Source of the DNA: Gossypium raimondii
Taxonomy: Eukaryota > Streptophyta > Magnoliopsida > Malvales > Malvaceae
Assembly: GCF_025698545.1 (NCBI RefSeq)
Contig: NC_068577.1
Coordinates: forward strand, 2,637,501-2,701,500
Length of the DNA: 64,000 nucleotides
Direction: 5' to 3'
Of this stretch, positions 5,474 through 50,530 are shown piece after piece. The position numbers and the translations under genes were made by a program. The notes below the pieces were generated by a model. It searched no databases. It was not told where the DNA came from and saw nothing but the letters and a program-made list of their open reading frames with translations. Every line of letters starts with the position of its first letter. The first letter of the stretch is position 1.

Positions 5474-6836
5474 TGCGATGCACCGAATCGAATACAAAAG
5501 AATGTATGTTGAAAGGACTTGAGCGTGGATAGGTAAGAAGTTATGTTGATTTTTTCATTTAAACATGACGAAAATTGGGGATATAGATTACCCTATATAG
5601 TTGGAGTTGAGGAGGTTTTTATTAAAGCCGCCTAAGGACACGCTGCTTCTTTACCCCTCCAGTTGATAAATAGTTTGTTATTGGAAGCAATAAATGGCCT
5701 ACTGCATGGGCTGGTATTTATATGTGGTATTCAGCTATGTATGAAATATACTTGATTTAATTTATTTTTCTATTTAAATTTTATGAAAATTTCTAGTTGC
5801 TCTGGTTGTATCAACTAGGTATCATGTCTTTATGGCAAATGATATTTTATGGAAAATATAGTATATGAATTTTTTAAAAATATAGATAAATTTGAAAATA
5901 AAAGCGAGGATGAATTTCAAAATTATACATAAATTTTGGTTTAATGTATAATTTTATACTCATTTTGATTTGATTTGATTTAATTCTCATAAATTAATAA
6001 CACAATTATTAATGACATTATTTTATGTTTATATTGTACACAAATAATTATATTTATCTAAATCTAAAATAAATGATTGTATTTATTTCTTTAAATATGT
6101 ATGATTGAATCAAAATTAAAATTTCATATATAAATGTGAACCGCAGTTAAACTTCCATATGTATAATTGCACTAAAGTTTATGTATTAACTTATATATTG
6201 AATTAAAATTCATGTATAGTTTTGAAATTTGTCCCTATTACAAAAGTTAACATGTTCAAATCTGTCAATGATGTCTTTGGTAAAGTTAACAAAGGTGTGA
6301 AGGTTTGAATCATGAGTATCTAGGTTCAAGACTCAACATGAATAACTTTATGCGTGTGATTTCAAGGTCAGTTTTAGTCTATATTGTACTGTTACTATGT
6401 GTGGATTTAAGTTCCAATAGTAAATATATTGTTTCAATTTTTAATCTGTTTGTATTGTAATTATTTGATTTTACATTTTATTCCATTTGTTAGTCCATCT
6501 ATATTACAACATTACAACAGTTCAATTCTACATTTTGGGACTGTTCAGACGGATTTTTATTTGCACTTTAATTGTACTTGTAACCTATAAAAATAATTTT
6601 AGTTACAGTAGTCGAGTTTAAGTTGGGGATTGCAGTAGCCATGAGTATTAATTAACAAGAGGCAAAGGAACATCTCGAGTTCCATTTCAGGGAGACGAAT
6701 GAGGGGGAATAAAAGCTAAGAATTTCATAAAAAAAGGTGTAAACCCGATTGAGAAACATAATGAACCCAAATTAATTGTAACGAGATACATATATACAAA
6801 GCAACTGTTCGTAAAAGAAGAGCTCTGCTCCCAACC
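5474..6836. other. Intergenic, convergent 3' ends
   Basis: Lies between the stop codons of VHA-a (+) and the RD19-like protease (-), so it holds both 3' untranslated regions. Beyond the possible AATAAA near 5688 it is AT-rich and I see no gene or well-defined element. Confidence 0.6.
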
Positions 6837-8682
<1,846 letters not shown>

Positions 8683-8742
8683 TTTTTTTTTTTGGAAAAA
8701 AAAAAGTGAAAGTTGCAGAGGAAACGGGAAACGAAGGCGCGT

Positions 8743-8750
8743 TATTTAAA
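8743..8750 (-). promoter_or_regulatory. Probable TATA box of the RD19-like gene
   Basis: On the minus strand TTTAAATA lies about 61 bases upstream of the ATG at 8682. This would place transcription start roughly 30 bases before the start codon. Position and sequence fit a plant TATA element; no transcript evidence. Confidence 0.45.
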
Positions 8751-10264: not shown

Positions 10265-10600
10265 CGCCATTGATATTTTAGTAATTTTTTTCATTTCGTT
10301 AACATATAATTTTTGTAATTTTTTTTATCTTAAATACTGAGCTTCAAACCTTGAACCTTAATTTTAAATCCCGAGCTTCGAATCTTAATCTCGAATCTTG
10401 AACCTTAATGTTAAATCTCAAACCCCAAACCCCAAATCAAGTTTAAAATTCAGGTTTGAATTTGAAGTTTAGATTCAGAGATTCGAGATTCAGGGGGTCA
10501 GGGTTAAGATTTAAGGTTCTAAATTTAGATTTTAAACTTCAAAATAAAAAATTATTAAAATTATATGTCTATAACATAAACAAATTATTAAATAATTAAA
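10265..10600. mobile_element. Foldback MITE, copy 1
   Basis: Terminal inverted repeats of about 50 bases (left GATATTTTAGTAATTTTTTTC... ACATATAATTTT; right is its approximate complement) enclose a palindromic middle of repeated CTTGAACCTTAA / TTAAGGTTC words. A clearly related element lies at 12835-13168, so this is a dispersed family rather than a chance palindrome. Confidence 0.6.
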
Positions 10601-10779
10601 AATAAACTATTAATAATGTGTTTAGAAGAGTAAATAAAATAATTTCTCCACTTTTAGTTATAAAGGTGTAATGTAACAGTTTTGTTTGCCTCAGCAATTT
10701 CGTAGATGTTGGATTTGCTTTTAGGATTACACCCAAAATTGACAATTGGGTAGACGGATTTTTGGAATTTAGTTTGATT

Positions 10780-11235
10780 TTTATATTTTATAAAATTAAA
10801 AAATAATTTAATTAGATAATATTACTAAAATCTTGTCTTTAAATCAAAATCGATATAACGATTTATATAGTATAAATTAATAAAATCAACGGTTCAAGAT
10901 TACGTACCAACAATTTGATTAAATTTTCGGTTTTAGTCAAGTATGAACATTAAATGCCAATAAATTAAAATAGAGAGATTAATTTCTTAATTCTCATAAA
11001 AATAGAAGGACGAAATTCATAATTAAACCTAGCTTAAAATTAAATGTATTTTTCAAAATATATTTAAAAATTAATATTTTATTTTATTTATTTAATAAAG
11101 AATCCCTTTCAATGATGTAAAACGAAATCATTTTTTTCAATACCAACAACCTAGACAAGATATAAACTACAAGTCTAAATTAATGTTCTTTTCTTGTTTT
11201 TCCAAAGAAGAAACTCTTATGTTAGACTTGGAACA
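10780..11235. repeat. Local duplicate of the sequence flanking the CACTA insertion
   Basis: This stretch aligns with 13310-13378 (left flank of CACTA A) joined to 28960-29300 (right flank). Shared landmarks in the same order are AATTTAATTAGATAATATT, AATCTTGTC, GACGGTTCAA/CAACGGTTCAA, TAATTCTCATAAAA/TTTTCATAAAAT and CTTGTTTTTC-AAAGAAGAAACTCTTAT. It acts as a paralogous copy of the empty target site. Confidence 0.6.
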
Positions 11236-12060: not shown

Positions 12061-12834
12061 GTGATTTAAGAGAAAAAAAAAACAATAGAATTTAAGGGAA
12101 ACCCTATCCCACCATTTCCGTGCTCAACAAGAAAAAATATATTTATGTTCTAGATTTTTAAAGAAATACATGTAGTACATGAACCAAATGGACAACATAC
12201 ACATATGATAGGTCTATAACCCAATTACTCGATGAAAACAAAAAGTAAAGCTATATAAAAATCCTTTTAATAACTTGTGCTTAACCGATGTGAGATATAG
12301 CCATTAACAACACCCCTCTCCATTACCTACAAAGTGCACTATATCATCATTATCCTCTTGTAAGTATCGAAGAATGTTGTATAGTGTTTGGTGCCACAAT
12401 TTACCGTTATTTTACAGGATGCTCGACATTTCGACCCCAAGAAACAAAAACATCCGACTCAGCCTCCCCTAAGAAAAAAAAATGTGAATATAGAAGCATA
12501 ATGTATTCATCCATTACACTTATGAAAATTGATGCATAAAGTCTTGTACATCTGAGTATATTAATTAAGGATTTTGAGCCTAAAAGGTAGATTATCAAAT
12601 GTAGCAAAAGAATGATTCATCCTTCTTATTTATTTGATATTATTATAATATTTTGTCACGATAGATCTTAATTTTTATTTTATAAATAATTAGTTAGATA
12701 TAGTCATAAATTAAAACCCATTTAAATTGTTTGTTACCTTCAGCTTTACAACAGTTGTTACATGTGTCAAGCCTTATAGGAACACACAGAAAGTATTGTA
12801 TGAAATAGAGATATCACGTCATCTTATATTTTTT
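12061..12834. other. Intergenic, no gene recognised
   Basis: AT-rich; a 66-codon minus-strand open frame at 12407-12607 shows no recognisable domain. Confidence 0.45.
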
Positions 12835-13168
12835 TAATCACTTAACGATATTTCAGTAATTTTTTTCATGTCGTTGATACATAATTTTGGTAATTTTTTA
12901 ACCTGAACCTTGAAACCTAATTTCGAAATCTCGAATCCGAAACTCTAAACCTTGAACCTCGAACCCTAAACTTGGTCTCTTGATTCAGAGTTTAGAGTTT
13001 AAGGTTTTAACTTCTAGGTTTAGGATTTGGGGTTTGGGATTTTGGATTTGAGTTCATGTTTCAAGGTTTGGGTTTGGGACTCATGTTTCAAAGTTCAGGT
13101 TGAAAAAATTATCAAAATTATGTATCAATGATATAGAAAAAATTACTGAAATGTCATTAAATAATTGG
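12835..13168. mobile_element. Foldback MITE, copy 2
   Basis: Terminal inverted repeats of about 55 bases. Left: CACTTAACGATATTTCAGTAA... TACATAATTTTGGTAATTTTTT. Right, in complement: TATTTAATGACATTTCAGTAA... TACATAATTTTGATAATTTTTT. The middle is rich in ACCTTGAACC / GGTTTGGG words as in copy 1 (10265-10600). No open frame. Confidence 0.65.
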
Positions 13169-13378
13169 AAAGGGATACAGGATGACGTTGCGACCCTGTT
13201 TCATACAATCTTTTCTTTAAGAACACAAAAACAAAGCAATTGGTAAATGAGGATCTGTGAAATTCATGATATAATATAACATATATACTTTAAAATAATT
13301 AGGATTAAGAACAAATTAAAAAAATAATAATTTAATTAGATAATATTGTTCAATCTTGTCGTCAAACCATTAAAACAG

Positions 13379-13790
13379 CACTACACCAGAACAGGTTTTT
13401 AGCGGCGTTTTTTTAGGCTTTTAGCGGCGCTTTTTAACGCCACTAAAGGCATTTGCGGCGCTTGAAGAAGCGCCACAAAAAATGCCGCTAACGACAACGT
13501 CGCTAACTTTTTGGCTTACTGAAAAAAACGCTAAAGAACATGTTCTTTAGCGGCGCTAAAAAATAAACGCTAAAGATCATGTTCTTTAGCGCTTAGAAAA
13601 ACGCCGCTAAAGATCATATTCTTTAGCGGCGCTTAGGAAGAAAACGCCGCTAAAGATCATGTTCTTTAGCGGCGCTTGGGAAGAAAACGCCGCTAAAAGT
13701 AGTGTTCTTTAGCGGCGCTTATTTCACAAACGCCACTATTTGATATGACTTTTAGCGGCGCTTTTTTAAAAAACGCCACTAATTTTGGGA
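13379..13790 (-). repeat. Subterminal repeat array, 3' end of CACTA A
   Basis: Roughly a dozen copies of TTTAGCGGCG or its complement CGCCGCTAAA, often paired as short hairpins with a TTTTT/AAAAA centre. In En/Spm elements such motifs bind the TNPA-type protein; that role here is inferred from the family. Confidence 0.85.
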
Positions 13791-14002
13791 TTTTTTTAAA
13801 ATAAAATTTTCCGTTTTTTTCAGCCTTCTTGCAACAACAAATCAAAAGCAACCAGATCTAAAGCAACCAAAAACAATAAATTTATATAATATTTCAAATT
13901 AAATGACAAATAATATTAATTGATATAAATAAAAGTGAATTCATACTTTTCTTTACAAAAACGTTAAAAGTTAAAATGATAAAAATATTTATGCAATATA
14001 CA

Positions 14003-15803
14003 CTATGACGGCGGAAGTTGCGACTGCTGAAACATCTTCATCATAATCTGAAGTTGCTGTTGAAGTTCGTCGTACTTTTTGCTCTGCTCTGCTTCTCTCG
14101 ATGTCGCATCTTTTTGAAGTCGTAGCTGTAGTTCTTTATATTTCTTTTGAACCATCTGCTTCTATCGCTGCTTCTCTCGTTGCTTCTCTCACTGCGGCCT
14201 CTGCTTCTCTCGCTGTAGCCTCTGCTTCCCTCGCTGCCGCCTCTGCTTTAAGTTGTTGCTGAAGTTCTTCATATTTCCTTTGAACCTCAAATGTGGTCGC
14301 TTGCATCTGAGCCATCTGGTCTTTTAACCTCTGAACTTCAGCTTGAGATTGACTCCCCGAAGCCATGTATTGGTACGAGCTGGATCCAAAATATTGGGTT
14401 AGGCTGATAAAATATCCTTGAAATCGAACCCGACCATACTTTTCAGGACCCAAAACTTCAGTAATAATCCGGTTATCAATGTATTCAAGATGAACAGAAC
14501 TATCACTAGAAGTAATCGCTTCGTACTCCGTCTTTTTTCCTTTAGTTTTTCCTAATAAATAAATCACATAGTTAGGAACGCAATATATATTAAAAAAAAA
14601 CAAATGCAATATAACAATAGTCGCATTACAAGCAATGACTTAAACCATTAGAAAATAAACACTATAAATAACTAAAACAAGTCAAATCGTATTAAGTAAA
14701 CGTACCATAATTTCACCAGCTTCAGGAGTCATAGCAGATCCATCTTTCTTCTTATGTGTAATTTCAAAAAGTTGAAGGCGTCCAACTTTTTAACCGGACG
14801 ACCGTTCCTACAATATAGTAGTAAAAATATTATTTAATAGAAAGTTATACATATTTGAGAATATTAAAAAATTAAAAATACCCCGCCTCAGCTACACATG
14901 CAAAACTTCTCGACCCGGCTGTGTGAGTGAATTTTTGTTGGCGCCGGCTGCTTTTTCCAACTCCTTCACGATCCTACGTTATAAAATTTTTAGTACGTAA
15001 ATAGTAAATACTATAAACCAAAATAATTACAATAGTTTGGAAGTACGTCGTACCTCGCCTTTCTGAGAATGCCAAAATCTAACCGCATCTTTCCATTGGT
15101 ACCTCAACATACCCGGCGGGACATTTTGCAATTTCTCATCGAGGGTTGTTTTTGTCTTATAATAAATTTTCTTCAAAGTACTTTTATTGTCTCTCCATCT
15201 TTTTCCAAATGCCTTCTTTACATAAGCATCCGAGACCTCTAAAGCAAACCTCGCCTACAAAAGACACAAGTTAATAAAGTAAATATAAATGAAACTATTT
15301 CCCAAGCATTACAGATGACATTAACATTTTGTTACCTTAATATTATCGAGGGCTTGGTTTTTGTTGCTATCGGGCATTTGACGCCATGACTTGTAGTTGA
15401 TAGGAAACATATTAACATTTCGTGCTAAAATGCCCATGTATCCTGCTAAAAGTCGAGCTTCTGATCCAACAGGCTGACCAAAACTGTTTCTGCATACCTT
15501 GACACGCTCGACTGGATCTGACTCGTATAACTCTCTAAGTAGCGTACGTCCTCGACCTCTGCGCGTCCCACCATTTTCAGCTACAAATGGTATATTATAA
15601 TATAAGAATTTGAAAAATAAATCAATTATAAGTCAACACGCATGTAAATTAAATGTAAAATTACTTTGAACTTCCGTAGGATCCTCAGGTGCAATCGGAA
15701 CATTCGAAGATCCAATTGCTGTCTGTTGTTCAGTACTATTTGCTTCTGTCGAGTTTGGATCGTTTTGAACAATGCTTTCCCTTATAATTTTTCTTCTAGG
15801 CAT
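14003..15803 (-). pseudogene. CACTA second gene (Transposase_24/TNPA-like), copy in element A, broken
   Basis: Six exons aligned to the copy in element B: 15803-15665, 15580-15336, 15254-15054, 14973-14882, 14807-14706 and 14551-14003. It begins MPRRKIIRES, has an RGRGRTLLRELYE segment and a TWRD-type W/K-rich region, then a C-terminal coiled coil of REAEA repeats. This layout matches the plant Transposase_24 proteins that accompany TNP2 in CACTA elements. Relative to copy B it has a one-base loss at the exon 4 donor, an in-frame stop early in exon 5 (GGT TAA where B has GGT CAA), a one-base loss at the start of exon 6, and a one-base gain near 14137 that shifts the last part of the coiled coil. 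Not functional. Confidence 0.75.
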
Positions 15804-15955
15804 TTTATCTGCAATACACATAAAATGTAATTAAACTTAATTACTAATTACAACAATAACAGCACATATAAAATAGTTGAAATATATAATAAGACAAAGA
15901 TTTAATACTAATGTAAGTTACATATAATTAAACAATCGTAAAATCTTACTATATC

Positions 15956-16530
15956 CACTACACCAAAACAAACTTTTAGCGGCGCTTTTAGCGGCGATTG
16001 GACAACAAACGCCGCTAAAAATTAAGCAGTAGCGGCGATTTTAAAAAAACGCCGCTAAATATCAGTATTACCGGCGCTTCTACAAAAACGCCGTTAACAA
16101 TGAGCATTAGCGGCGTTTTTTAAAAAGCGCCGCAAAAAACCTAAGCCAAACGACGTCGTTTTTCTTAGTTTTCGAGGCTTTGGTGGCGTTTTTGGAGAAG
16201 CGCAAGTAATTCTCAGGGCTTTAGCGGCGTTTTTTAAAAAGCGCCGCAAAAGACCTAAGCCCAACGACATCGTTTTCTTAGTTTTTGAGGCTTTGGTGGC
16301 GTTTTTGGGAAAGCGCCGCTAATGCTCAGGGTTTTAGCAGCGTTTTTTAAAAATCGCTGCAAAAAACCTAAGCCCAACGACGTCGTTTTTCTTAGTTTGG
16401 GAGGCTTTGGTGGCGTTTTTGTAAAAGCGCCGCAAAAAACCTAAGCCCAACGACATCGTTTTCTTAGTTTTCGAGTCTTTGGTTGGGGATTTAGCGGCGT
16501 TTTTGAAGAAGCGCCGTTAATGCTCTATTT
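15956..16530 (+). repeat. Subterminal repeat array, 5' end of CACTA B, with tandem unit of about 115 bp
   Basis: Dense AGCGGCG / CGCCGC motifs. From about 16141 a longer unit recurs, each beginning CTAAGCC(C)AACGAC(G/A)TCGTTTT, at about 16141, 16254, 16370 and 16441 (spacings 113, 116 and 71). The CGACGTCG core is palindromic. Confidence 0.8.
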
Positions 16531-16789
16531 TTTAAGAAAATATTAATTAAAATATTTTAAATTATTTAGTAAAAAATAATGACACGTACAAACAATTTTG
16601 AAAGTAAAAATATGTAAAAATATATAAAATATTTATTAAAAACGGGAAAAATGAAGAGACTGTTGTTTAAAATAATTTTAAATTAAGTTTATTGGGTACA
16701 AGAATGGTTATTTTTAATTTATATATTAAATAGTTTCTTATATAATCGTAATAGAGATAGTATTATTTTTAAAATATTGAATTAATTAT

Positions 16790-17060
16790 CATTATAGTTT
16801 AGGGTTTATGGTTTAAGGTATAAGATTTAGGGTTTAAGGATTATGCATGGTTTTATGGTTTAAGTGTTTAGGGTCAGAGTTTAGGGTTTAATTAAGGTTT
16901 ATGTGAATTATGGGTTTAGTGATTATGATTTACAATTTAGGGTTTACAAGTTGGGGTTTAAGGTTTATGGGTTGGGGTTTAGGGTCTAGGCTAGGTTTAA
17001 GGATTATGATTTTGGGTTTAGGGTTTAAAGGATTTAGGGGTTATGTGTTTAGGGTTTATA
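16790..17060 (+). repeat. Degenerate telomere-like (TTTAGGG) tract inside CACTA B
   Basis: Some 25 loosely spaced TTTAGGG / GGTTTA words with irregular spacers over 270 bases. Element A has a counterpart on the other strand at about 27840-28030 (CCCTAAA words), so the tract belongs to the family and is not a true interstitial telomere. Confidence 0.7.
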
Positions 17061-17519
17061 TTAATTAGTGTTATCTAATCAAGCTTTTTTGACCCTTACT
17101 TGTAGGGTTCTTAGAATGTCATATGTTCGTGGACGTGTTTGAAACAAGTTTTAGACACGAATACTTGAAGTAATTAAAATTAAGAGTCAAAGGAATAGAA
17201 TTATATATCCTTAATTTCTATTAACCAATCATGAACTTTTTTCGGATTGTTTTGATCCTTCTAATTTGTTCGATTCTATCGTAACATTATCAGCTTTGTC
17301 TTCTTTAATACAAAAAACTACGTATTCTTCATCAAGAAAACATATATATCCAGCTCCAGTTTTCATATTATTAAAAATTACTTTCATACACAATTATAAA
17401 ATTTTACAAATTAAATATATAGCGTTGAACAGAATAAATTTAATTGAAAGGAATTTACGAAATAATTAAAACTTTGAAATATAGAAACAAATTTAATTTA
17501 AAGGAATTTTGTTTCAATA

Positions 17520-18190
17520 AAAACGGTGGCGTTTTATAGGATATATTAGTGGCGTTTTGGGTAAAACGCCGTAAAAGTTTGGGCTTTCCCGGCACTAAGC
17601 TGAAAACGCCGCAAAATGTGATTTTGTTTCAATAAAAACGTTGCCGTTCTGTAAGATTTCTTACTGGCGTTTTTGGTAAAATGCCGCAAAAGATCATCCT
17701 TTAGCGGCGCTATGTCAAAAACGCCGCAAAATGTGATTTTGTTTCAATAAAAATCTTGCCGTTTTGTGGGATTTTTTACTGGCGTTTTTGCCAAAATGCC
17801 GCAAAAGGTCAGCCTTTAGCGGCGCTAGATTAAAAACGCAGCAAAATGTGATTCTGTTTTAATAAAACGCTGCCGTGGTGTAGGATTTATTAGTGGCATT
17901 TTTTGTAAAACGCCGAAAAATGTCAGCCTTTAGCGGCGCTGCGTTGAAAACGCCGCAAAATTTCAATGGGTTATAATAAAAAACGTTGCCGTTTTGTTGG
18001 ATTTTGTGTTGACCGAAACGAAACCGTTTTTATGTTTTTAGTGGCGTTTTTGTTAAAACGCCGCAAAAGATCTTGCTTTAGCGGCGCTTCTTTTAAAACG
18101 CCGCAAAAATGTTATTTTGTGTTTACCAAAACGTGACCATTTTTTTATGTATTTAGTGGCGTTTTTTGTTAAAACGCCGCAAAAGATGTT
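17520..18190 (+). repeat. Second subterminal-type cluster of CACTA B, tandem unit of about 118 bp
   Basis: Units containing GTGATTTTGTTTCAATAAAA, a GCCGTT word, GGCGTTTTTGGTAAAA and TTTAGCGGCGCT recur near 17613, 17731, 17846 and 17965. The array continues after the hAT-like insertion at 19404-19520. Confidence 0.75.
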
Positions 18191-18198
18191 ACTTTAGC

Positions 18199-19403
18199 TA
18201 GGGGTGAGCATTCGATCAAATCGAATCGAATCGAATCGAAAATTTTCGAGTTAATCGAGTTTTCAAATCTCATTTTATCATCCTAACTTTATTTGAAGTT
18301 TTCTCGAATCGAGTCGAGTGAGATGGAATTCGAATCGAATTGAATCGAATATATTTGTTCGAGTTAAATTTTAAAAAATAATTTTGGGTCCTTGTAACCA
18401 TTGTCACCCATCGTAATAAAATTTGTCCACCTTAATCAAAAATTTTAATAACTTTCATCACACCATAATTTATTTATTAATTTTTTATATACTGGTTAGC
18501 TTCTTTGCTTGCTTAGTTGTTTCAATTATCTTCATATTCTTGTCACTATGTATTTTGGAATTAAAATATATTAAATGTAAAAATATGATTTTTAATAAAA
18601 GTTATTTTAAAAATAAAATGTGAAATTGATACCAATATAAAATTTTAACACGAATATTTTATGGCATAATTAATAATTCAGTTTTAATATAAACATTCAA
18701 TATGACTAAACAATTCAATAATATAAATAATATAAAATGTGAAATTTAATTTAATAATATAAATAGTAGATATAAATAAAATTATTACTATTTATGTTTA
18801 GTATTTTTGGATAATTTTGATTTTTATTTGAGAGTAAAGGGTGAGAAGTAAAAGTTTAGGGGAAAATAAAAGTTTTGGGGAATAAAAGTTTGAGGAAAGT
18901 AAATAGGGGAGTAAAATTTTGGAGGAAAATATTAAAAAAATTGGAGGGGAGGGTTTAGGGTAGATGGGAGGTGGGATGGGAAGGAATAAAAGTTTTAGGG
19001 AAAAGTGGGAGGAGTAAAAATTTTGGGGAAAATAAAAGGTTTTGAGGGTTTTGGGAGTAAAATTTTGAGAAAAAGTAAATGGGAGAGTAAAATCTTGGTG
19101 GAAATGGATTTTGGGTAGATTGGGGTTGGGAGGAGAGGAGTAAAAGTTTTGAGGAAAGTGGGAAGGAGTAAAAGTTTTGAGGAAAAGTAAAAAGTTTGGG
19201 AGTTTGGGGTAAAATGTAAAATATTATAGTTTGATATTGAATTATTGAGTTATTCAATTGAAAACTCAACTCGATTCGAACTCGAAATTGAAAAAAATTG
19301 AGTTGATTGAATAACTCGATTAACTCGAATAACTCGATTCGTTTAACTCGAAATTCAATTTTTTTTCGATTTTTCGAGTCGAATCGAGTTTTGCTCACCC
19401 CTA
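18199..19403. mobile_element. hAT-like non-autonomous element nested in CACTA B
   Basis: 1,205 bp. Terminal inverted repeat TAGGGGTGAGCA / TGCTCACCCCTA, flanked by a perfect 8-base duplication ACTTTAGC (18191-18198 and 19404-19411), as expected for hAT insertion. Removing it restores an uninterrupted CACTA subterminal repeat (TTACTTTAGCGGCGCTTC). Subterminal regions are rich in TCGAATCGA / ACTCGATT words. The centre (about 18830-19200) has irregular GGGGAAAATAAAAGTTT repeats. No transposase frame. A shorter relative lies at 39646-40294. Confidence 0.85.
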
Positions 19404-19519
19404 ACTTTAGCGGCGCTTCTCTTAAAACGCCGCAAAAATGTTATTTTGTGTTTACCAAAACGTGATCGTTTTTTTATGTATTTAGTGGCGTTTTTGTTAA
19501 AACGCCGCAAGTGTTTATT

Positions 19520-20791
19520 TCTTGTAGCCGAAACGTCGTCGTTCCCTCAAAGGTTTGTTTATTTTACCGAAAACATCGTCGTTTCCCTGTTTTCCCCTTA
19601 TTCTGATTTTCATATCCCCCTTTCTCCCCAGCAGAGGGTCGATCGATCGTCATTCATTTCCCAAGCAGCAAAAACCTCCCCTAACGTTTTAGAGTTTGAG
19701 AAAATTCCTCCCGAAATCCCAAATTTCTACCCGAAATCAGCAGAAATCAGTAGCCCCACTACTTTCCCGAAATCGGCAGCCTTGGAATCACCATTTTTGA
19801 GGTTTGTTCTCTTGCCCACCCGACTTCTAGGGTTTCCATGAATTAAAAATTTCGTTATTTTCATTGAGTTTGATTCGGGGTTTGCAGTGTTTTAAATTGT
19901 TATGTATAGTATGAAGTTAGGGGAAAGTTGAGGATCCAGCATTGATTGGTACTGAATCCGGTGGATTCTTTTTTAGAAATCGCTTGTAATCGCACTGTCC
20001 TTTCTTGCTTCCTTGCTTGACTGCCTTTTACGAGCATACTAGGAGTCAAACGATTAACTATTTACTGAGCTATTGCATAAGAGAGAGCAAATTGTTCTCT
20101 ATAGTTCTCTATAGTGCTTCATTACAGACCCAAAACAAAGCATATTGTTCTACAAAGTGCGCAGCATATAAATTTCACTGTAATCGTTAAATATGTTCCT
20201 AATTCGGTGTACATTTTTTGTACGTGCTTTTGTAGTTTTGGTTCTTCTTTCTTGTTTCTAGCTTTCATTACAAATTGGTAGGCAGACAGGTGATCTAATG
20301 CATTTAAATGACCTTTTAATTATGTTTAATATTATTGTGATAATGTATTTTCAATGTTTGTTTTGGTATGCTTTCTATTTAGTTTAATCATTAAGTATAT
20401 TAGAAATTGGATGTGCATCATTAAGCTTTCAATTTGGCTGCTGTCAAATGTTTGGTTGCTACTGTCAAATGTATTCTTATTTTCAGAGTCTGGTTTGTTC
20501 ATTTGTGGGGATTGCAGTTGTTTTATGTTCAACTGTGCTAAGGCATACTTCAGTTAAAATAAATCAAATTTAATATTTTGATTTGAATCTTGATTTAGTT
20601 GAAATATACTCTGTTTAGTCAACGAGAAGGAAAAAATAAGCTTTGCCATTAGACTGGGAAATCCCTTCTAATGTAATTCTTAAATAATGTAATAAGCTGA
20701 TAAATAATGTTTAAAAGAAACAATGTATATGATATGGCCTTAAATCATTTATGCATTTAGGTTTTTTTAGTTTTTTTTTTAGTTTAGTTAA
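19520..20791 (+). other. Leader and intron-like region of the CACTA B transposase gene
   Basis: 19520-19850 is richer in C and CpG than its surroundings (CGTCGTCG words, CCCGAAATC repeats), like a plant 5' untranslated exon. After it comes about 900 bases of T-rich, intron-like DNA that leads straight to the last transposase exon. The region where the DDE core should be coded is missing, so an internal deletion is inferred. Confidence 0.5.
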
Positions 20792-21334
20792 CTTCGTGAA
20801 AATAAACTTCGTGAAAATTGTGGAATAGTTGTTAATTCTGCAATTACAAGTTATACTAGTGCTAGGGACAATAATCCTATCGAGGGGAATGTGGAATATT
20901 TTGGACATCTCACTGACATAATTGAGTTGGATTACTACGGCAAATGGAAAGTTGTCTTATTTCGAGGTGATTGGGCCGATGTTAATACAGTTCGTGGAAT
21001 TAAGCAAGATCAATTTGGTTTTACAATGGTGAACTTTGACCGATTGATTCACACAGGACAACAACTGATAGATGAGCCGTATGTATTCTCATCTCAAGTC
21101 AAATAAGTTTTTTACTCAAAAGATCCAACTGATGAGGGTTGGTACGTTGTACTCTGTAACATCCCTAGAGACTTGTTTGACATGGGTAGTGGAAGTAGAG
21201 ATAACATCGACGATAGATCAGAAACTTTGCCATTTCCAGAACAAAACTTAAACAATAATATCCCTAGTACTAGTACACAATTTCAATGGGTTCGTCAGGA
21301 TACAGATGAAGATATTTATAAAATAATGATGTAG
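20792..21334 (+). pseudogene. TNP2 transposase C-terminus (DUF4216 region), CACTA B
   Basis: The frame reads GIVVNS...NPIEGNVEYFGHLTDIIEL, then YGKWKVVLFRGDWADV, GFTMVNFDRL, DEPYVFSSQVK, then a TAA stop at 21104-21106. The same frame continues VFYSKDPTDEGWYVVL...IPRDLFDM to a TAG at 21332-21334. This is the DUF4216 domain found at the end of plant En/Spm TNP2 transposases. The internal stop is probably a CAA to TAA change, since glutamine usually stands there. With the catalytic part absent and this stop, no active transposase is possible. Confidence 0.8.
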
Positions 21335-21476
21335 TAAGATTTTGCGATTGTTTAATTATATGTAATATCATAATTTAAATCTTGGTTTTATTATATATTT
21401 CAACTATTTTATATGTGCTGTTATTGTTGTAATTAGTTATTAAGTTTACTTACATTTTATGTGTATTGCAGATAAA

Positions 21477-23263
21477 ATGCCTAGAAGAAAAATTGTAAGG
21501 GAAAGCATTGTTCAAAATGATCCAAACTCGACAAAAACAAATAGTACTGAACAACAGACAGCAATTGGATCTTCGAATGTTCCGATTACACCTGAGGATC
21601 CTACGGAAGTTCAAAGTAATTTTACATTTAATTTACATGCGTGTTGACTTATAATTGATTTATTTTTCAAATTCTTACATTATAATATACCATTTGTAGC
21701 TGAAAATGGTGGGACGCGCAGAGGTCGAGGACGTACGCTACTTAGAGAGTTATATGAGTTAAATCCAGTCGAGCGTGTCAAGGTATGCAGAAACAGTTTT
21801 GGTCAGCCTGTTGGATCAGAAGCTCGACTTTTAGCAGGATACATGGGCATTTTAGCACGAAATGCGAATATGTTGCCTATCAACTACGAGTCATGGCGTC
21901 AAATGCTCGATAGCAACAAAAACCAAGCCCTCGATAATATTAAGATAACAAAATGTTAATGTCATCTGTAATGCTTGAGAAATAGTGTCATTTATACTTA
22001 CTTTATTAACTTGTGTTTTTTGTAGGCGAGGTTTGCTTTAGAGGTCTCGGATGCTTATGTAAAGAAGGCATTGGGAAAAAGATGGAGAGATAATAAAAGT
22101 ACTTTGAAGAAAACTTATTATAAGACAAAAACAACACTCGATGAGAAATTGCAAAATGTCCCGCCGGGTATGTTGAGGTACCAATGGGAAGATGCGGTTA
22201 GATTTTGGCATTCAAAGAAAGGCGAGGTACGACGTACTTCCAAACTATTGTAATTATTTTGGTTTATAGTATTTACTATTTACGTACTAAAAATTTTATA
22301 ACGTAGGATCGTGAACGAGTTGGAAAAAGTAGCCGGCAGCAACAAAAATTCACTTACACAGCCAGGTCGAGAAGTTTTGCATGTGTAGCTGAGGCAGATG
22401 TATTTTTAATTTTTTGATATTCTCAAATATGTATAACTTTCTATTAAATAATATTTTTAATATATATTGTAGGAACGGTCGTCCGGTCAAAAAGTTGGAC
22501 GCCTTCAACTTTTTGAAATTACACATAAGAAGAAAAATGGATCTGCTATGACTCCTGAAGCTGGTGAAATTATGGTACATTTACTTAATACGATTTGACT
22601 TGTTTTAGTTATTTATAGTGTTTATTTTCTAATGGTTTAATTCATTGCTTGTAATGCGACTATTGTTATATTGCATTTGTTTTTTTAATATATATTGCGT
22701 TCCTAACTATGTGATTTATTTATTAGGAAAAACTAATGGATAAAAAGACGGAGTACGAAGTGATTGCTTCTAGTGATAGTTCTGTTCATCTTGAAGACAT
22801 TGATAACCGGATTATTACTGATGTTTTGGGTCTTGAAAGGTATGGTCGGGTTCGATTTCAAGGATCTTTTATCAGCCCAACCCAATATTTTGGATCCAGC
22901 TCGCATCAATACATGGCTTCGGGGAGTCAATCTCAAGCTGAAGTTTAGAGGTTAAAAGACCAGATGGCTCAGATGCAAGCGACCACATTTGAGGTTCAAA
23001 GGAAATATGAAGAACTTCAGGAACAACTTAAAGCAGACGCAGCAGCGAGGGAAGCAGAGGCTGCAGCGAGAGAAGCAGAGGCCGCAGCAAGAGAAGCAGC
23101 GAGAGAAGCAGAGGTTCAAAAGAAATTTGAAGAACTACAGCTACGGCTTCAAGCAGATGCGACATCGAGAGAAGCAGAGCCGAGCAAAAAGTACGACGAA
23201 CTTCAACAGCGGCTTCAGATTATGATGAAGATGTTTCAGCACTCGCAACTTCCGCCGTCATAG
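21477..23263 (+). pseudogene. CACTA second gene (Transposase_24/TNPA-like), copy in element B, broken
   Basis: Exons 21477-21615, 21700-21944, 22026-22226, 22307-22399, 22473-22574 and 22727-23263; the phases agree throughout. Product: MPRRKIVRES start, RGRGRTLLRELYELNP, a GYMGILARN segment, GKRWRDNKSTLKKTYYKTK, WHSKKGE, RLQLFEITHKK, then a C-terminal coiled coil of REAEAAAREAE repeats ending QHSQLPPS. About 370 residues if uninterrupted. Two lesions are visible against copy A: the exon 2 donor reads AAG|ATAACA where A keeps AAG|GTAACA, and codon TAG at 22946-22948 replaces CAG, with the frame open on both sides. By analogy with TNPA it would bind the subterminal repeats; that function is inferred. 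Confidence 0.75.
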
Positions 23264-23474
23264 TGTATATTGTATAAATATTTTTATCATTTTAACTTTT
23301 AACGTTTTTGTAAAGAAAAGTATGAATTCACTTTTATTTATTGATATTAATATAATTTTAGTCGTTTAATTTGAAATATTATATAAATTTATTATTTTTG
23401 ATTAGTTTAAATCTGGTTGCTTTTGATTTGTTGTTGCAAGAGGGCTGAAAAAAACATAAAATTTTATTTTAAAA

Positions 23475-23805
23475 AAATCCCAAATTAGTGGCGTTTTTTA
23501 AAAAAGTGCCGCTAAAAGTCATATCATATAGTGGCGTTTGTGAAATAAGCGCCGCTAAAGAACACTACTTTTAGCGGCGTTTTTAACTAAGCGCCGCTAA
23601 AGAACATGATCTTTAGCGGCGTTTTTTTCTGTAAGCGCCACAAAAGTTAGCGACGTTGTCGTTAGCGGCATTTTTTGTGGCGCTTCCTCAAGCGCTGCAA
23701 ATGCCTTTAGTGGCGTTAAAAAGCGCAGCAAATGCCTTTAGTGGCGTTAAAAAGCGCCGCTAAAGGCCTAAAAAAACGCCGTTAAAAACCTATTCTGGTG
23801 TAGTG
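23475..23805 (+). repeat. Subterminal repeat array, 3' end of CACTA B
   Basis: Inverted counterpart of 13379-13790: paired AGCGGCG / CGCCGCTAAA motifs leading into the terminal TGGTGTAGTG. Confidence 0.85.
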
Positions 23806-23809
23806 ATCA

Positions 23810-24028
23810 TTATTCGTAAATATCTTCTTCCGTATCCTGACGAACCCATTGAAATTGTGCACTAGTACTAGGGATATTATCGTTTAAGTTTTGTTCTGGA
23901 AATGGCAAAGTTTCTGATCTGTCGTTGATGTTATCTCTACTTCCACTGCCCATGTCAAACAAGTCTCTAGGGATGTTACGGAGTGCAACGTGCCAACCCT
24001 CATCAGTTTGATCTTTTGAGTAAAATAT
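23810..24028 (-). pseudogene. TNP2 transposase C-terminal remnant, CACTA A
   Basis: Minus strand: FYSKDQTDEGWHVALRNIPRD, LFDMGSGSRDNI, FPEQNLNDNIPS, QFQWVRQDTEEDIYE, then TAA at 23812-23810. It aligns over its whole length with the end of the copy at 21107-21334. Element B is inserted just after this stop. Nothing of the transposase upstream of this fragment was found in A. Confidence 0.8.
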
Positions 24029-26454
24029 AGCTTATATACGTAAATTAATATATGTATAATATTAAAAATATAGTATTACATATGTAAGTTATCAATTTAT
24101 GTCCCAAATTGATTACATTTTCTCGGAAAATTTATTGCGTAATTTTTTAAAAATCTTCTCAAAATTTTTTAGAAAAATAGGTTATATATGTGAAAAATAA
24201 AATAGGGTTAAGCCAAAAAGAACGAGATCAGCTGGCATATTAGAGGTTAAAATATAATATTACAAGCAATCTTTGCTTTTAAACTAATCTTGCACTCAAT
24301 TAGGGATGGAAAGGTATATGTGTTACTGATTTGACAACAAAATAAACACTACTTTCTGCAGTATATGTTTGCTGATTTTGTTTGCAGAGAAAAGATAAAA
24401 GCAAATCTAATATAAAAGCATAAAACCCGTGGATTCTAAAGTTGCATGCTTTTCTTTTTTATTTCTACAAGTTTAGCACTAAGGTCTTTTCATCATTTTT
24501 AAACTTATTTATCTTCAAACTATAAATAACAGTATATCAGTTTCATACTAGCATTTCTTTCTTTTATAACTAATCATTGATTTTCAAAGTGTAATTACAA
24601 TTATAAATCATATATATTACTATGAACAACAAGTAATTATATCTTAATATTTTTTATGTATTTCAAAGATAGCGAAATTGTATTGTTTATGGAACCATAT
24701 TAAATAATACTAGTATTAAATAATACTATTTGCATTGGCTAAAAGAACTATTAGCACATAAACAAAGTCCACTTGCTTAAAACCATTTGGGGATTTGCAT
24801 AATACATGTCAAGACGGTGACTAAATGCAACGGCTATAGCAGTACCTCGAACAGCAAGATGATTAACTACCAAACCTTTTGTTTGCAACAGAAAATTTAC
24901 CTTCAGAAAATTCTGTTCTTTCAATCAAACTAAGGCTGATACATTACAACAGAAGAATAAATATTTACCTTCCACGCAAAAAAGTAGACAAGTTCTGCAG
25001 CGAAATACGCAGCAAGCTAGCGGCAAAAAATTGACCTTTCACGCCAAAGAATAGTGTTATCCTTCCAACCCAGCAAGCTAAGCACAACAACGCAAACAGC
25101 AATTATGAACGGTTACAAACTACTATAAACTACAAACAGGATATAAACAAATTATGAACAAAAATTTGCAACGAGAAATGTTATTAGATTTATATTATTT
25201 TATAAGCTATAGAGTAAGAATTATTTGATAAGCTATAGAGTGAGAATTATTATGCAACGAGAAATGTTATTAGAAATGCATTACTTGACAGCCTATGGGA
25301 CCAAATACAACAATTATTTGATAAGGTATATTCCAACGAAGTGTTCAAGAGAGCACTGCACAAGGTTTTTGTCAAGAGTTGGTTCAAATGTGCCAAATTT
25401 CTGGCATAGTGAATTTTCCTAACCTTTGTTTTCACTAACCAACTAATTTATCTATATAACAGCTTCCAATGGATGTCGTTTGGTGCCTGAACCTTTGATC
25501 AATTTGGTCTTTTAAATGCAGGAATTCGATCGAGACCCGTAATTCCTATCTATTCACTAGACCGATCAAGTTAACAAGGCAATCGAAATACGATACCATG
25601 TCACTGCAAACAAGCTTGAAGGAAAATAACTTGAATTACTCATTGCCCTTCTTCCAGACAACAATGGATCCTTATATGGTATGTCCCTTCTTGCAACTAT
25701 ATTAATTGTATGAACAAAATTTTTCATGATTAGCAGGATAACAATGTACAACAAGACGAAATATACTGCTTAGTTTGCTTTGATTTTTGTTTAAAAATAA
25801 TATTTTTTTCATGCGTATGACATGAGATATGGTACTTTTGGTTTCAGTAAGAGCAATTATGGGACCAAATATTATCATTTCCTATAATACAAACAGGAGA
25901 GTGAAAATGATGAAAAAAATTATGAACAGTTCCAAACTATTTGGAACTACAAGCAGGAAATAAACAAATCATGAACTAAATTATGCAAAGGCTATAGATA
26001 AAATTCTAAGAACAAATTCCCGGTCTTTTCTGTCCCAAACAGGATACTGTAAAATTGTCTGAAACTCATCAACAATTTGCGCATTTAGTTAACATTATTA
26101 GGTGTAAAATAATGTATGTGAGGTTGTAACCTAAACCCTATACCAGGTGCAAAACTATTTGCGCGCAGAAGAGAAAGAGGAAAACCTTACCGATCGTTTT
26201 ACCCAAGTGACGGCAGAGGAGTGCAGTGGTACACGACTGTCACGGTCGACGGTCGACGAGCAACAACAGAAGGGTCAGTAAACGGTAATGTAGCAGTGAT
26301 GGTTGAGGCACAGCAGACTAGGGTTCTAGATTTGGGCAATTTTTGGGGAAAATTTGGGGGGAATTTTTGGGGAGAAAAGTGATTTGTCGGCTAAGGGATG
26401 GGACTATTTGGGATGAAATACAGACACTATAAAATGACAGCGTCTTACCAGAAT
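24029..26454 (-). other. Interior of CACTA A, no intact gene
   Basis: AT-rich DNA where the transposase body should be. Short open frames (for example 25225-25422) show no recognised domain. At 26150-26400 the minus strand is GC-richer and ends in ACGATCG|GTAAGG, like a non-coding first exon with its splice donor. Confidence 0.5.
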
Positions 26455-27075
26455 GAACATTTGTGGCGTTTCTAATATAGCGCCACTAATGCCTTTAAGG
26501 TGTCATGTAAAACGCCAGCGTTTCTCTAAAATGGGCGGAAAATTTGCGGCGTTTTATTTGATAGAACCGCTAAAACCTACCTTCAGTGGCGTTTTAGGCG
26601 TTGCGCCGCTAAAGCCGAAAAAATTTCCCAAACAAAAATTACATCGTTTTGCCCAAACTAATAATATTTTCCGACGTTTATGAATAAAACGCCGTTAAAT
26701 CAAATTTTCGTGGCGTTTTATACAAAAACGCCACTAGTACATTAATTTCTTTTATTGAAATGCCATCGTTTTCAGAAATTTTAAAACATTGTTTTTTTAA
26801 TTAATATTTAAAATATATATATAAATTAATAATTGCGGCGTTTTTACCTGAGCGCCGCTAATACCGTTAATATGCCACACAAAACGTCAACGTTTTAATT
26901 ACAGACTACAGAGCAACGTTGCGGCGTTTTCTTCCTAGCGCTGCTAATTCCCAGATTTAGTGGCGTTTTAGACATTATGCCGCGAAGGCCGTTAAATTCC
27001 CAGCCAAAAACTACACCATTTTCTCCAAATTATTAAAAACTTTTGCGGCGTTTTTTGCTGAAAACGCCGCTAAAT
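26455..27075 (-). repeat. Second subterminal-type cluster of CACTA A
   Basis: Repeats of GGCGTTTTA / GCGCCGCTAA words at intervals, the counterpart of 17520-19520 in element B. Confidence 0.75.
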
Positions 27076-27839
27076 CTCACATATTTTATTTATTTATTTA
27101 TTTCTTCTATGTTTCATTAAAATTTTAATTAAATAATTATTAAAATTTTAAGTAATATTTAAAAGTTTTGATAAAAATATAAAATTTTGTTTTTTATTTC
27201 ATTTTATATTTTGTTAGTTTTTTCTAATATTTTGATCCTATCCAAATTCAATAATTAATTACCTATATATATATATCCATATAAAAAATATCGAATTGTT
27301 AAGGTTAAATATTTTTAAATATAAAAGTATTAATTAATTAATTGTATCATTTAACAAGTCTCAAATAAACTTTAAACCCTAATTTAACCATTCAATATAC
27401 ATCTTTGAAATATCTTAAACCCTAATATATATTATATCTCTTAACTAAATAATATAAATTAACTATACATATTTGAAATATCTTAAATGATCACTGAGCC
27501 TCCACGTACCAATTGTAGGATTCTTGACATGTGCTATCGGTGCCCTAGGAACATTGCCAAAAAACCGAAAGGGGGCTTCTAGCTTCCAACAATCCAAATC
27601 CCGTCGTTCATCAATAAATATATTTAGAACAATCCTTTCTACTATAAAGAAGGGTGAACTAGATTTTGTAGAGTACTGACAAAAAATTGGAGAAACAAAA
27701 CCGGGCAGTCACTACTTACTCGACTGCTAGCACATACTCAAGGCCGATAAGACGTAATATATACTCATAATTTAAATATATTAAATTTATCATTATATAT
27801 TTTACAAACATATAAGAACATATTTAATATATAAATTAA

Positions 27840-28030
27840 TTAAACTAATTAATCTAAGCAACCAACCCTAACTTGAGTACCCTTGACACCTTAACCCCTA
27901 AATCCCTAACCCCTAAATCCCCTTAAACCCTAACCCCCTAAATCACTAACCCTTAACCTCTAAGCCCTAAATTCCTAACCCTTAACCCCTAAACCTTAAT
28001 CCCAAACCCTAATCCATACCCCTTACTCCT
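27840..28030 (-). repeat. Degenerate telomere-like (CCCTAAA) tract in CACTA A
   Basis: Repeated CCCTAAATCCCTAACCCC-type words, the opposite-strand match of the tract at 16790-17060 in B. Confidence 0.7.
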
Positions 28031-28574
28031 TAAAATACCTTCCAAAAAATTTCCTAAATCTTTAATAATCATAAAATATAGTTTAAATCGATTAAACAAT
28101 AATTAATAGTTAAAAATTTTGTATAAAGTAGCAATAAACAATATTAATCTTTATAAAATTTATTTTTTATATAAAGTATGGAATTTTAATATTTTATTTT
28201 ATTGATAAATGAATAAATTTCTCTGATTAACAAATTTATTATATTCTTAATTTCTCAATTAGATAAATGAAAACAAGAAGGACGAACAACTATATATATA
28301 TATATGGCATTTTTTTAATATTGAAGTGATAACAAAAGGAATGATAGCAAGTTAGGTATATGCATATATTTTAATTTGAATATTGATTTCAATTCAAATT
28401 CACAAATTTATTTAAGTATTTAATTAAATGTTTGTCATGAATTATTAAAGTATTACTATTCCAACCTTGAATTTAAATTAAATAATATTATCCATTGAAT
28501 ATTTTACATATTCTAGAATTAAGTTGAATTTTATTTAATTAATCTAAATAATATTAAACCAATTAAGATAAAAT

Positions 28575-28956
28575 GTATTTTGCGGCGTTTCCATCAAAAC
28601 GCCGCTAAAACTCCAACATTAGCGGCGCTTTACAAAAAAACGCCACTAAAAGCCCTAAAATTAGCGGCGCTCAGAAAAAAACACCACTAAAAACCATAAC
28701 ATTAGCGGCGTTTGTTTAAAAACGCCACTAAAGCCCTCTGAAGGTCACCAAACGACGCCGTTGGGTTTGGAGTTTTTGTGCCGTTTTAGCAAAAGCGCCG
28801 CTAATGCATATTATTAGCAGTGTGTTTTTATAAGCGCCGCTAAAGGCCTATTTTTTGTGGTGCTTTCTCACAAACGCCGCTAATGCCTGATTTTTACCGG
28901 CGTTTTTCCACAAAACGCCACTAAAAGTGCCGCTAAAAGCCTATCTTGGTGTAGTG
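28575..28956 (-). repeat. Subterminal repeat array, 5' end of CACTA A
   Basis: Paired AGCGGCG / CGCCGCTAAA blocks, with one ACGACGCCGTT word like the CGACGTCG motif of B, ending in the terminal TGGTGTAGTG. Confidence 0.85.
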
Positions 28957-28959
28957 CAG

Positions 28960-29549
28960 AAATCACCAGATCAATAATTTATAGGTAAGAAATTAGTAAA
29001 AATTGACGGTTCAATAAATTATATACAATAAATTAGCAAAAATCAACAATTTAAGATAAGTATTCATAGACAATTTATAGGGATTAATTTGTTAATTTTC
29101 ATAAAATAAAAAGATAAAACTTTACAATTACATTTAGTTAATAGTTAAAATATCACATATATTTTTCAAAGGATGTTTAAAAATAAAACTTGTGATAATA
29201 TTATAAATTTATTTATAGAATTAAGGAAAAGGGTCTAAATTCATGTTCCCCTTTCTTGTTTTTCAAAGAAGAAACTCTTATATCAGTCTAACATGTTAGG
29301 CTAAGAATGCTTGATCCAACCAACCATATGCAACCGACACTTCAACTCTCACGTGCTCTTTCGCAGTAGTAATTTTTATTTTTTTATTTTGGTAAATTAT
29401 AATAGGGTAAAGTTCTAATAGCAACACGATTAGCATAATTCAAATTTAGGCTATACTTGGTGAACATCCTAATCATCAGGTTAATATATGGGGTTCAATA
29501 AGAGTAATTATTATTATTATTTTGGTGAAACAAACAAATAAATGAAAAA
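28960..29549. other. Right flank of CACTA A, repeat DNA
   Basis: Up to about 29300 it resembles 10900-11235 (see that entry). The rest is AT-rich without a gene. Confidence 0.5.
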
Positions 29550-31037: not shown

Positions 31038-33199
31038 ATGAACTCCCTTCCTTCTTTAGTTCTGGCCTTTCTTGTCATTGTTCTTCAAGTTTTGGATTCA
31101 GCAGTGATATGCAATGGGGGAAAGACCAGCACCTACGTTAGGAAAGTGGAGAAAACTGTGGATATGCCGCTTGACAGTGATGTTTTTCGAGTTCCCCCAG
31201 GCTACAATGCACCCCAACAGGTTGCTTCTCGGTTCCTTAGTCTTGTTTTTTATATTTTTCTTTTGTCCATGTCGGAATCTAGACAGGGAGCAAAGCTCTC
31301 CTAGTGCCGACTTTGCTTAAGGGGCCACTCGGTCCAATAGGTGTTGGTTGTTTCAGAATTGACATTGTTTTTGTAAATTTAAGGTTCATCTAACACAAGG
31401 AGATCATGTTGGAAAAGCTGTGATTGTTTCATGGGTAACTGAGGATGAACCAGGTTCCAGTACTGTTGTTTACTGGAGTGAAAACAGCAAGGAAAAGAAA
31501 AAGGCAAAAGGCAAATTCAATACCTACAGGTTCTTCAATTACACCTCTGGTTTTATTCATCACTGCACCATCAGAAATCTGGAGGTAAATTTGGGATTAT
31601 TTACTGTATTCATAGTCTCCCTTTTACTGTTCTATCTTATGCCTGCTTGGCTATGGTCTATATAGTACTCAGTACGGTTTGCGTTATCAAGTCTGGAGGG
31701 GGCATTCTTTGATTTCGATTCCGAGTCCTTTTTTCATTTGGTTGTTGAATGTTTTTGCAGTATAACACCAAATATTACTATGTGGTTGGTGTGGATCATA
31801 CTATGAGAAAATTCTGGTTTACAACTCCTCCCGAAGTTGGTCCCAATGTCCCATACACATTTGGTCTCATTGGTAAGGGAAAGCTTGATTAATGTATGTA
31901 TGTATGTATCATGTTTTGATGTGGTAATGTATATCATAATGCAGGGGATCTAGGGCAGTCTTTTGATTCAAACAGGACATTGACTCACTATGAGCAAAAT
32001 CCAGTGAAAGGTGAAGCAGTGTTGTTTGTTGGGGATCTTTCTTACGCAGATAACTACCCCAATCATGATAATGTAAGATGGGATACATGGGGAAGGTTTA
32101 CTGAGAGAGTTGTTGCATATCAACCATGGATATGGACAGCAGGAAATCACGAAATCGACTTCGCCCCTGAAATCGTAAGCACTCGTTCTTTTCTCATTGT
32201 TATGGCTGGCCTGGTGAATTGATAATAACACGATTATGGTTCTGTTGCAGGGTGAAACAGAGCCTTTTAAGCCTTACATGCACCGTTATCATGTTCCTTA
32301 TCAAGCATCAAACAGTACTGCTCCCTTTTGGTACTCGATAAAAAGAGCTTCGGCGTACATCATAGTATTGTCTTCGTATTCAGCCTATGGTATGTGTATG
32401 ATTCACCAGGGATGCATGTTGGATTCATCTGGTAACTTATCAATAATATTTCCGCAGGTAAATACACTCCACAGTACAAATGGCTAGAAGAAGAGCTACC
32501 GAAAGTAAACCGGAGCGAAACACCATGGTTAATAGTCCTTATGCATTCCCCATGGTACAACAGCTACAACTACCATTACATGGAAGGAGAAACCATGAGA
32601 GTAATGTATGAACCGTGGTTTGTGCAGTACAAAGTCGATGTTGTATTTGCCGGTCACGTCCATGCCTACGAACGAACCGTAAGCTCTTTGCCTGTATCAT
32701 TAGGTTCTGCATTGTGGGGTTTGAACCATTTTTTGAAATGCCTAATGGAAAAGAGTTTGTTTCGAAGTTGCTCGATGACCGATTTATGTATTTTTACAGG
32801 AACGCATATCCAACATTGCATACAACATCGTAAATGGCCTTTGCACTCCCGTGAAGGATCAATCCGCACCTGTATACATTACGATCGGTGATGGAGGGAA
32901 CATTGAAGGCTTAGCAAACAAGTAAAAGATTGTTCTTTTCTTGTATGTGATGGTTTTCCTACATGATTTATGTCAAACGGTTTGGTTTTTTTCGTATTTG
33001 CAGCATGACCGAGCCACAGCCGGCTTACTCGGCATATCGCGAAGCCAGTTTCGGTCACGCCGTTTTCGATATCAAGAACAAGACTCATGCTTATTATAGT
33101 TGGCACCGTAACCATGATGGATATGCAGTTGAAGCGGATTCAATGTGGTTTTTCAATAGATACTGGCATCCAGTTGACGAGTCTTCAGCCTCACAGTGA
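31038..33199 (+). CDS. PAP: Purple acid phosphatase, plant 55-kDa class, complete, 8 exons
   Basis: Secreted binuclear metallophosphatase that releases inorganic phosphate from organic esters, of the PAP10/PAP12 type. Exons: 31038-31220, 31384-31584, 31761-31872, 31945-32174, 32251-32389, 32458-32678, 32800-32921 and 33004-33199. All introns are GT-AG and phases agree, giving 467 residues, the normal family length. Residues 1-26 form a signal peptide. The N-terminal fibronectin-like domain covers about 55-155. The phosphatase domain contains all seven metal ligands: Asp167 (GDLG), Asp196 and Tyr199 (GDLSYADNY), Asn233 (GNHE), His317 ([10 protein letters not shown]), His354 and His356 (GHVHAYERT). 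The C-terminus is [14 protein letters not shown]. Several N-glycosylation sites occur. An AATAAA near 33239 is a likely poly(A) signal. Two P1BS motifs upstream suggest phosphate-starvation control. I cannot assign a one-to-one Arabidopsis orthologue. Confidence 0.95.
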
Positions 33200-50113: not shown

Positions 50114-50530
50114 TATAATTGTTAAAGTTGTACATCGTGAATCTCATCACTTGTTAAAATAATAAAATACAATGGCAAAAATAAGAGAATCTGTAAGGAC
50201 GATCGGAGTTACGACTGAATCCCATTTAATATAATACTGGATTTTTTCTCTGCCCGTATGTTTTTATTTTCTTATTATGTGATTATTCTTTTGTCATTAT
50301 TCACGTCTATTAAATTAACGAATTTACAATTTGATTAAGATAAATACAAACAGTAAAGAGAGTCTTCCACTACCTTTGAGTTCTTTATTTTTCGACCCAA
50401 AGGTCAGGATGAAAACGAGCATCTGACACTAAACAAGCAATTAGGAACATTGGAGTTTGGGGGACATACCTCAACTTACATCGATCCCATCTTCATGAAC
50501 TATATTCAAAGATCTCCAACTCCATCATCA
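50114..50530. other. Downstream region of the first lectin kinase
   Basis: Holds the probable 3' untranslated region of the gene ending at 50531; no other feature seen. Confidence 0.5.

Follow-up and report, generated by a model that had tools for sequence, protein, structure and literature searches.

A three-level nest of DNA transposons in Gossypium raimondii: two CACTA elements of one family and a hAT-type element

When three DNA transposons lie one inside the other and each still carries an intact target-site duplication (TSD), does the nest by itself tell in which order they arrived? The question is raised by a 64,000-nucleotide stretch of the Gossypium raimondii genome (C13:2637501-2701500, hereafter the window), in which a CACTA element (A) encloses a second CACTA element in the opposite orientation (B), which in turn encloses a hAT-type element. 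The locus is a stack of three ordinary DNA transposons, real, clean, and ordinary, and we consider it most probable (about 0.88) that three cut-and-paste insertions of non-autonomous elements, mobilised in trans, were stacked in place in the order A, B, hAT. A preliminary description of the locus held that the order of insertion was fixed by the nest, which goes too far, as cut-and-paste elements can move with cargo and a composite built elsewhere and then moved would give the same three TSDs. Even where each level of a DNA-transposon nest retains its TSD, the order of arrival is not fixed by this alone; what argues for the order is the uniqueness of the junctions in the genome.

The three elements are found at the places given in the preliminary description, and their TSDs are clean when followed base by base (Table 1). 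After subtraction of B and one ATC, element A is 7725 bp long, and element B is 6637 bp long after subtraction of the hAT-type element and one copy of its TSD. Counted over both strands, the window contains the terminal sequence CACTACACCA exactly four times, once at each CACTA end, with 0.05 occurrences expected under a first-order model, while TAGGGGTGAGCA, the 12-bp terminal inverted repeat (TIR) present at both ends of the hAT-type element, occurs three times against 0.003 expected, at these two ends and at one end of a relative. The chance of two window positions matching is 0.022 for a 3-mer and 5e-5 for an 8-mer. A and B are members of the CACTA superfamily, with CACTA...TAGTG TIRs, 3-bp TSDs, repeat-rich subterminal regions, and tnp2 homology, and 56 of the 58 GCGGCG/CGCCGC occurrences in the window lie within the bounds of A, where they occupy the ends and repeat arrays of both elements. 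We count the original superfamily assignments (CACTA, CACTA, hAT-like) as supported, and the TSD sizes agree with those in the superfamily table of PMC4423477.

Evidence for the middle level comes from the genome as a whole. The 750.8-Mb assembly (281 contigs) was searched for both junctions and for copies of the hAT-type element, and the best 40 candidates of each search were scored, out of 2251 for the B|A junction, 2418 for the B|hAT junction, and 2693 for the hAT copies. With a query made of the end of B plus A, the window alone spans the junction among the best 40 candidates; in all the other scored places (39/39) the match begins at the first base of the ATC, with B attached in none, and the 11 of them that were read are continuous through the site of B with a single ATC (11/11). 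When B is removed, the 3' half of A aligns unbroken across the join to B itself, again with one ATC. Between B and the stop of the remaining transposase frame of A lie only the TSD and one base, and the statement that the removal of B restores the transposase 3' end is correct.

At the innermost level, removal of the hAT-type element with one copy of ACTTTAGC restores one unit of the 115-bp array of B, as had been proposed for this subterminal repeat. When 201 bases of the hAT-type element and 600 bases of B were used together as the query, the window was the only one of the best 40 candidates to span the B|hAT junction. Of the others, two match just the B part (90% and 79%), and the matches of the remaining 37 are confined to the hAT part, ending at most 7 bases from the element end. 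The 90% B relative (801 bases read) runs through the hAT site without the hAT-type element, and its best alignment, the register of which is ambiguous within the array, is gap-free around the site. The hAT family is large, and among the 40 places scored for it, 37 of the 39 other copies were checked for their surroundings (19 on both flanks and 18 on one, with two partial copies left unchecked); none lies in B sequence (0/37), and the positive control, the window's own flanks, was detected. We also observed a second, shorter relative of this family at 39646-40294 (649 bp), whose aligned stretches are mostly 74 to 84% identical and whose flanking 8-mers agree at 5 of 8 positions.

Some hAT elements have ends of the TAG type. 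Assignment of the 1205-bp element to another TIR superfamily with an 8-bp TSD is unlikely, even if the four open pieces tested (67 to 161 amino acids) contain neither a transposase domain nor any Pfam family at E 0.01 and the ends begin with TA, where the table in PMC4423477 gives CA as the hAT consensus. All 19 of the other copies fetched have a matching 8-bp flank (15 perfect and 4 with 7 of 8 bases, none of them ACTTTAGC), which is the hAT length.

The outermost insertion has the weakest of the three sites. The target of A was an old direct duplication of roughly 1 kb, of which it occupies the right copy. When A and one CAG are removed, the joined flanks (13313-29187) are colinear with the left copy (10793-11074) at 66% identity, with more blocks on both sides; of 200 random right flanks, none matched across the join. 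The claim that removing A restores a repeat paralogue is thus borne out, the CAG itself not being confirmed base by base. The search for the three empty sites that the preliminary description proposed therefore succeeds, in the plant's own genome, for B (11/11) and, with ambiguous register in a single relative, for the hAT-type element, and gives for A no more than this 66% paralogue. A fold-back of about 430 bp (12788-13216), similar to a miniature inverted-repeat transposable element (MITE), lies beside and partly within the right copy of the host repeat. A further nested element within the 5' half of A was considered and rejected, as the longest inverted repeat there has 33 nucleotides at 76% (25 longest of 38).

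A and B are one CACTA family. The alignment of the two that had been suggested as a check reveals shared 3' halves of about 2.8 kb, 94.5 to 95.3% identical outside the terminal repeats, with a Kimura two-parameter (K2P) divergence of 0.049. The last approximately 155 bases by the 3' end are just 80% identical, and for the distal 1.2 kb of the 5' halves lenient scoring gives a similarity of about 59%. Degenerate TTTAGGG-like (telomere-like) arrays occupy matching places of the 5' halves, at 16797-17058 in B and 27838-28010 in A. The tree places A and B in separate supported clades; neither is therefore a direct copy of the other, and for the same reason gene conversion between them after nesting was rejected as the source of the 95% similarity. 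Selection was rejected as well, since open-frame pieces and the remaining sequence are equally diverged (95.3% identity in both, the exon bounds being stop-to-stop guesses); codon counts in two pieces (5 synonymous differences in 114 sites and 12 non-synonymous in 420) are too few to separate weak constraint from none.

Both elements are non-autonomous and without the tnp2 catalytic core. We found no Transposase_21, TAD, or DUF4218 domain in A or B with Pfam on 20 single open pieces and 2 joined reads of open reading frame 2 (ORF2), shorter pieces being excluded, and across the pieces of the 5' halves and ORF2 only the DUF4216 remnant of B, which has an in-frame stop at 21104-21106, was above the cut-off. 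Open pieces of the 5' half of A gave no transposase domain with Pfam, the Transposase_24 match in A (E 0.2) being below the cut-off, and a PDB search with one piece of this half gave no match. ORF2 of B is TNPA-like by position only; it matches no Pfam family above the cut-off, and a viral-contig search with one of its pieces gave no relative.

We compared both elements with eight relatives, fetched as 20 kb each, from a family for which the first look gave more than two thousand candidate places in the genome. The 3' module is present in all eight, at 91 to 95% identity to A. Four of the eight are bounded by exact TIRs with an equal 3-bp flank (R009, R005, R006, and R008; 9.3 to 12.3 kb); a fifth with such a pair, R004, was dropped from the count because an internal TIR forms the start of its pair. 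In R012 both TIRs are present with unmatched 3-mers, and R013 and R007 each miss one exact TIR. Pfam identified pieces of TAD, Transposase_21, DUF4218, and DUF4216 in L029 (R008), Transposase_21 (E 1e-63) and DUF4218 in the two pieces tested of L023 (R005), and TAD in the one piece tested of L015 (R009). These tnp2 domains lie in separate open pieces, with frames broken where read, and we do not claim an intact transposase for any relative.

In all eight comparisons, homology to the relatives breaks off in A at position 24025 (24028 for one relative) and in B at position 20814; among 11 shorter loci, that to L011 breaks off at 21027 in B. As the stopping points differ between A and B, the two elements lost the transposase core by different events. 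Their 5' halves match the eight relatives in repeat stretches only (65 to 82%), and another B relative shares part of the 5' half of B at 90%. Because the relatives share the conserved 3' half and match the 5' halves of A and B poorly, the combination of a variable 5' half and a conserved 3' half looks like a trait of the family and not of the nest, and the diverged 5' halves in this family (13379-24025, L015-L030) suggest an exchange of 5' arms among subfamilies.

Since the tnp2 catalytic core is absent, A and B must have been mobilised in trans. In the history that we propose, complete members of the family would have provided the tnp2 transposase for the excision of A and B at the CACTA termini and for their insertion with a 3-bp stagger, and a putative autonomous hAT partner would have mobilised the 1205-bp element with an 8-bp stagger. 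A would first have entered the old duplicated intergenic repeat, its sister element B would then have entered A in opposite orientation, and the hAT-type element would finally have entered the subterminal repeat array of B, each leaving its TSD.

A competing reading is composite movement, in which the hAT-type element entered B, or B entered A, or both, at another locus and the whole unit then moved here. We judge it improbable. Cut-and-paste elements carry cargo, the 15.6 kb would be no obstacle given the 20.5-kb CACTA insertion reported in PMC2613891, and divergence does not order the three events. Against it, no second copy of either junction was found among the best 40 places scored in each search, and none of the other hAT copies checked lies in B sequence; this evidence, external to the nest, argues for stacking in place.

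Several points weigh against stacking in place in the order A, B, hAT. Scoring covered only 40 candidates in each search, out of 2251, 2693, and 2418 from the first look, and could have overlooked a composite copy that has diverged; a cut-and-paste move, besides, may leave no copy behind. At the empty site of A, the alignment to the paralogue has a 9-bp gap close to the join, where a single-copy CAG is not visible base by base, and the hAT-free relative has a different number of array units. Neither the nest nor divergence reveals the order of arrival either: private substitutions amount to 22/2372 (0.9%) in A, 29/2373 (1.2%) in B, and 13/1200 (1.1%) in the hAT-type element, with p = 0.62 for equality, in rough counts based on 9 other rows, all agreeing, for the CACTA module and 19 other rows at 85% for the hAT. 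End branches (hAT 0.026, B 0.024, and A 0.017, from trees with different sequences and different sampling) run, if anything, opposite to a clock in which the outermost element is the oldest, and they neither support nor refute the hAT-type element as the youngest.

The locus is consequently not the good dating case that it had been taken for, as the private substitutions are alike and the A-B divergence dates the split of subfamilies and not an insertion. With plant substitution rates of 7e-9 to 1.3e-8 per site per year, each element would have a rough age of 0.7 to 1.7 million years, and all three fit a single recent period of activity. An assembly or recombination artefact, with two CACTA fragments joined by ectopic recombination, has next to no probability. 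A and B are inverted sequences of one family and hence a substrate for rearrangement, but the four intact TIR ends, the exact TSDs, and the empty sites, with a single-copy target in all 11 relatives read, speak against it.

Table 1. Coordinates of the nested elements, their parts, and the host repeat in the window.
Feature	Position	Strand	Remarks
CACTA element A	13379-28956	-	5' end 28956, 3' end 13379; CACTACACCA...TGGTGTAGTG ends, CAG duplication
TSD of A	13376-13378 and 28957-28959		CAG
CACTA element B, inside A	15956-23805	+	Inverted relative to A; CACTACACCA ends, ATC duplication
TSD of B	15953-15955 and 23806-23808		ATC
hAT-type non-autonomous element, inside B	18199-19403	+ (strand arbitrary)	1205 bp; TIR TAGGGGTGAGCA, 8-bp TSD
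TSD of hAT-type element	18191-18198 and 19404-19411		ACTTTAGC
115-bp GCGGCG repeat array of B, split by hAT	17506-18198	+	Ends in TSD ACTTTAGC
DUF4216 remnant of B (C-terminal part of tnp2 transposase)	20792-21331	+	PF13952, E 2.6e-13
ORF2 pieces of B, coiled-coil accessory protein	21648-23260	+	Open pieces 21648-21956, 22026-22250, 22727-22945, 22949-23260
3' half of A	13379-15955	-	Contains the TIR, subterminal repeats with GCGGCG, and exon-like pieces of the accessory ORF2; TSD ATC at its end
End of transposase frame of A	23809-24025	-	Minus-strand stop at 23810-23812; limit of homology to B and relatives at 24025
5' half of A	24026-28956	-	Distal part with GCGGCG and TTTAGGG-like repeats
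A-less paralogue of host repeat (about 1 kb)	10272-11228	+	Colinear blocks; block 10793-11074 crosses the joined-flank point
Host repeat, left part	12847-13378	+	Ends in TSD CAG
Host repeat, right part	28957-29289	+	With second CAG

Two frames flank the nest, one (8152-8745, minus strand) with a cathepsin propeptide domain and the other (32436-32888) with a calcineurin-like phosphoesterase domain. Elsewhere in the window, a tandem cluster of receptor-kinase genes occupies 50446-63913, one tested member having B_lectin, PAN, and kinase domains; a truncated copy in it (58164-59026) is 92% identical to 63011-63913, and the other direct pairs listed are 74 to 81% identical. A pair of inverted repeats (5913-6132 and 41888-42101; about 220 bp, 72%) perhaps represents a MITE family.

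Multi-layer nesting is common in plants, where inserted elements become the targets of others (reviewed in PMC10741241), and the present nest differs from those stressed in the sections of that review cited here, where long terminal repeat retrotransposons are the usual targets, in that its three layers are all DNA transposons and two of them belong to one family. A non-exhaustive literature search found neither this particular nest in print nor any paper on CACTA elements in the cotton genome. The locus is a clean case for teaching and useful for testing annotation software, which would report a false element of 15.6 kb if the nesting were missed.

Within eudicot CACTA/En-Spm elements with tnp2, A and B resemble Jozin of Chenopodium (PMC8978399) and Tgmt* of soybean (PMC2613891), as far as these are described in the parts of the two papers used here, in their CACTA ends, 3-bp TSDs, and repeat-rich subterminal regions. 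The ORF1 domain set given for Jozin in PMC8978399 (TAD, Transposase_21, DUF4218, and DUF4216) is the one found in the relative L029. Unlike Jozin and Tgmt*, A and B lack detectable TAD, Transposase_21, and DUF4218 domains, A also being without the first part of DUF4216, and their subterminal motif, GCGGCG/CGCCGC with TTTAGGG-like arrays, is a different one. The 1205-bp element is like other non-autonomous hAT elements in its short TIR, 8-bp TSD, lack of a detected transposase, and many copies.

The sole unusual property of the nest is that it contains an inverted repeat of the family's own gene, in which 13379-15955 and 21328-23805 lie on opposite strands as arms of about 2.5 kb, approximately 95% identical outside the terminal repeats. 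Such a same-family inverted repeat is a candidate for self-silencing: a read-through transcript from the 5' side of A would be predicted to fold into a long hairpin and could feed small interfering RNAs against the CACTA family, which we regard as a long shot. In the sections of PMC3440606 cited here, Mu killer of maize likewise carries part of the gene of a transposon, together with terminal sequence, as an inverted duplication. Unlike Mu killer, the repeat described here was made by the nesting of two copies and has arms about 5.4 kb apart; if it did act in this manner, it would be a silencing locus made by nesting and not by rearrangement, like Mu killer in effect.

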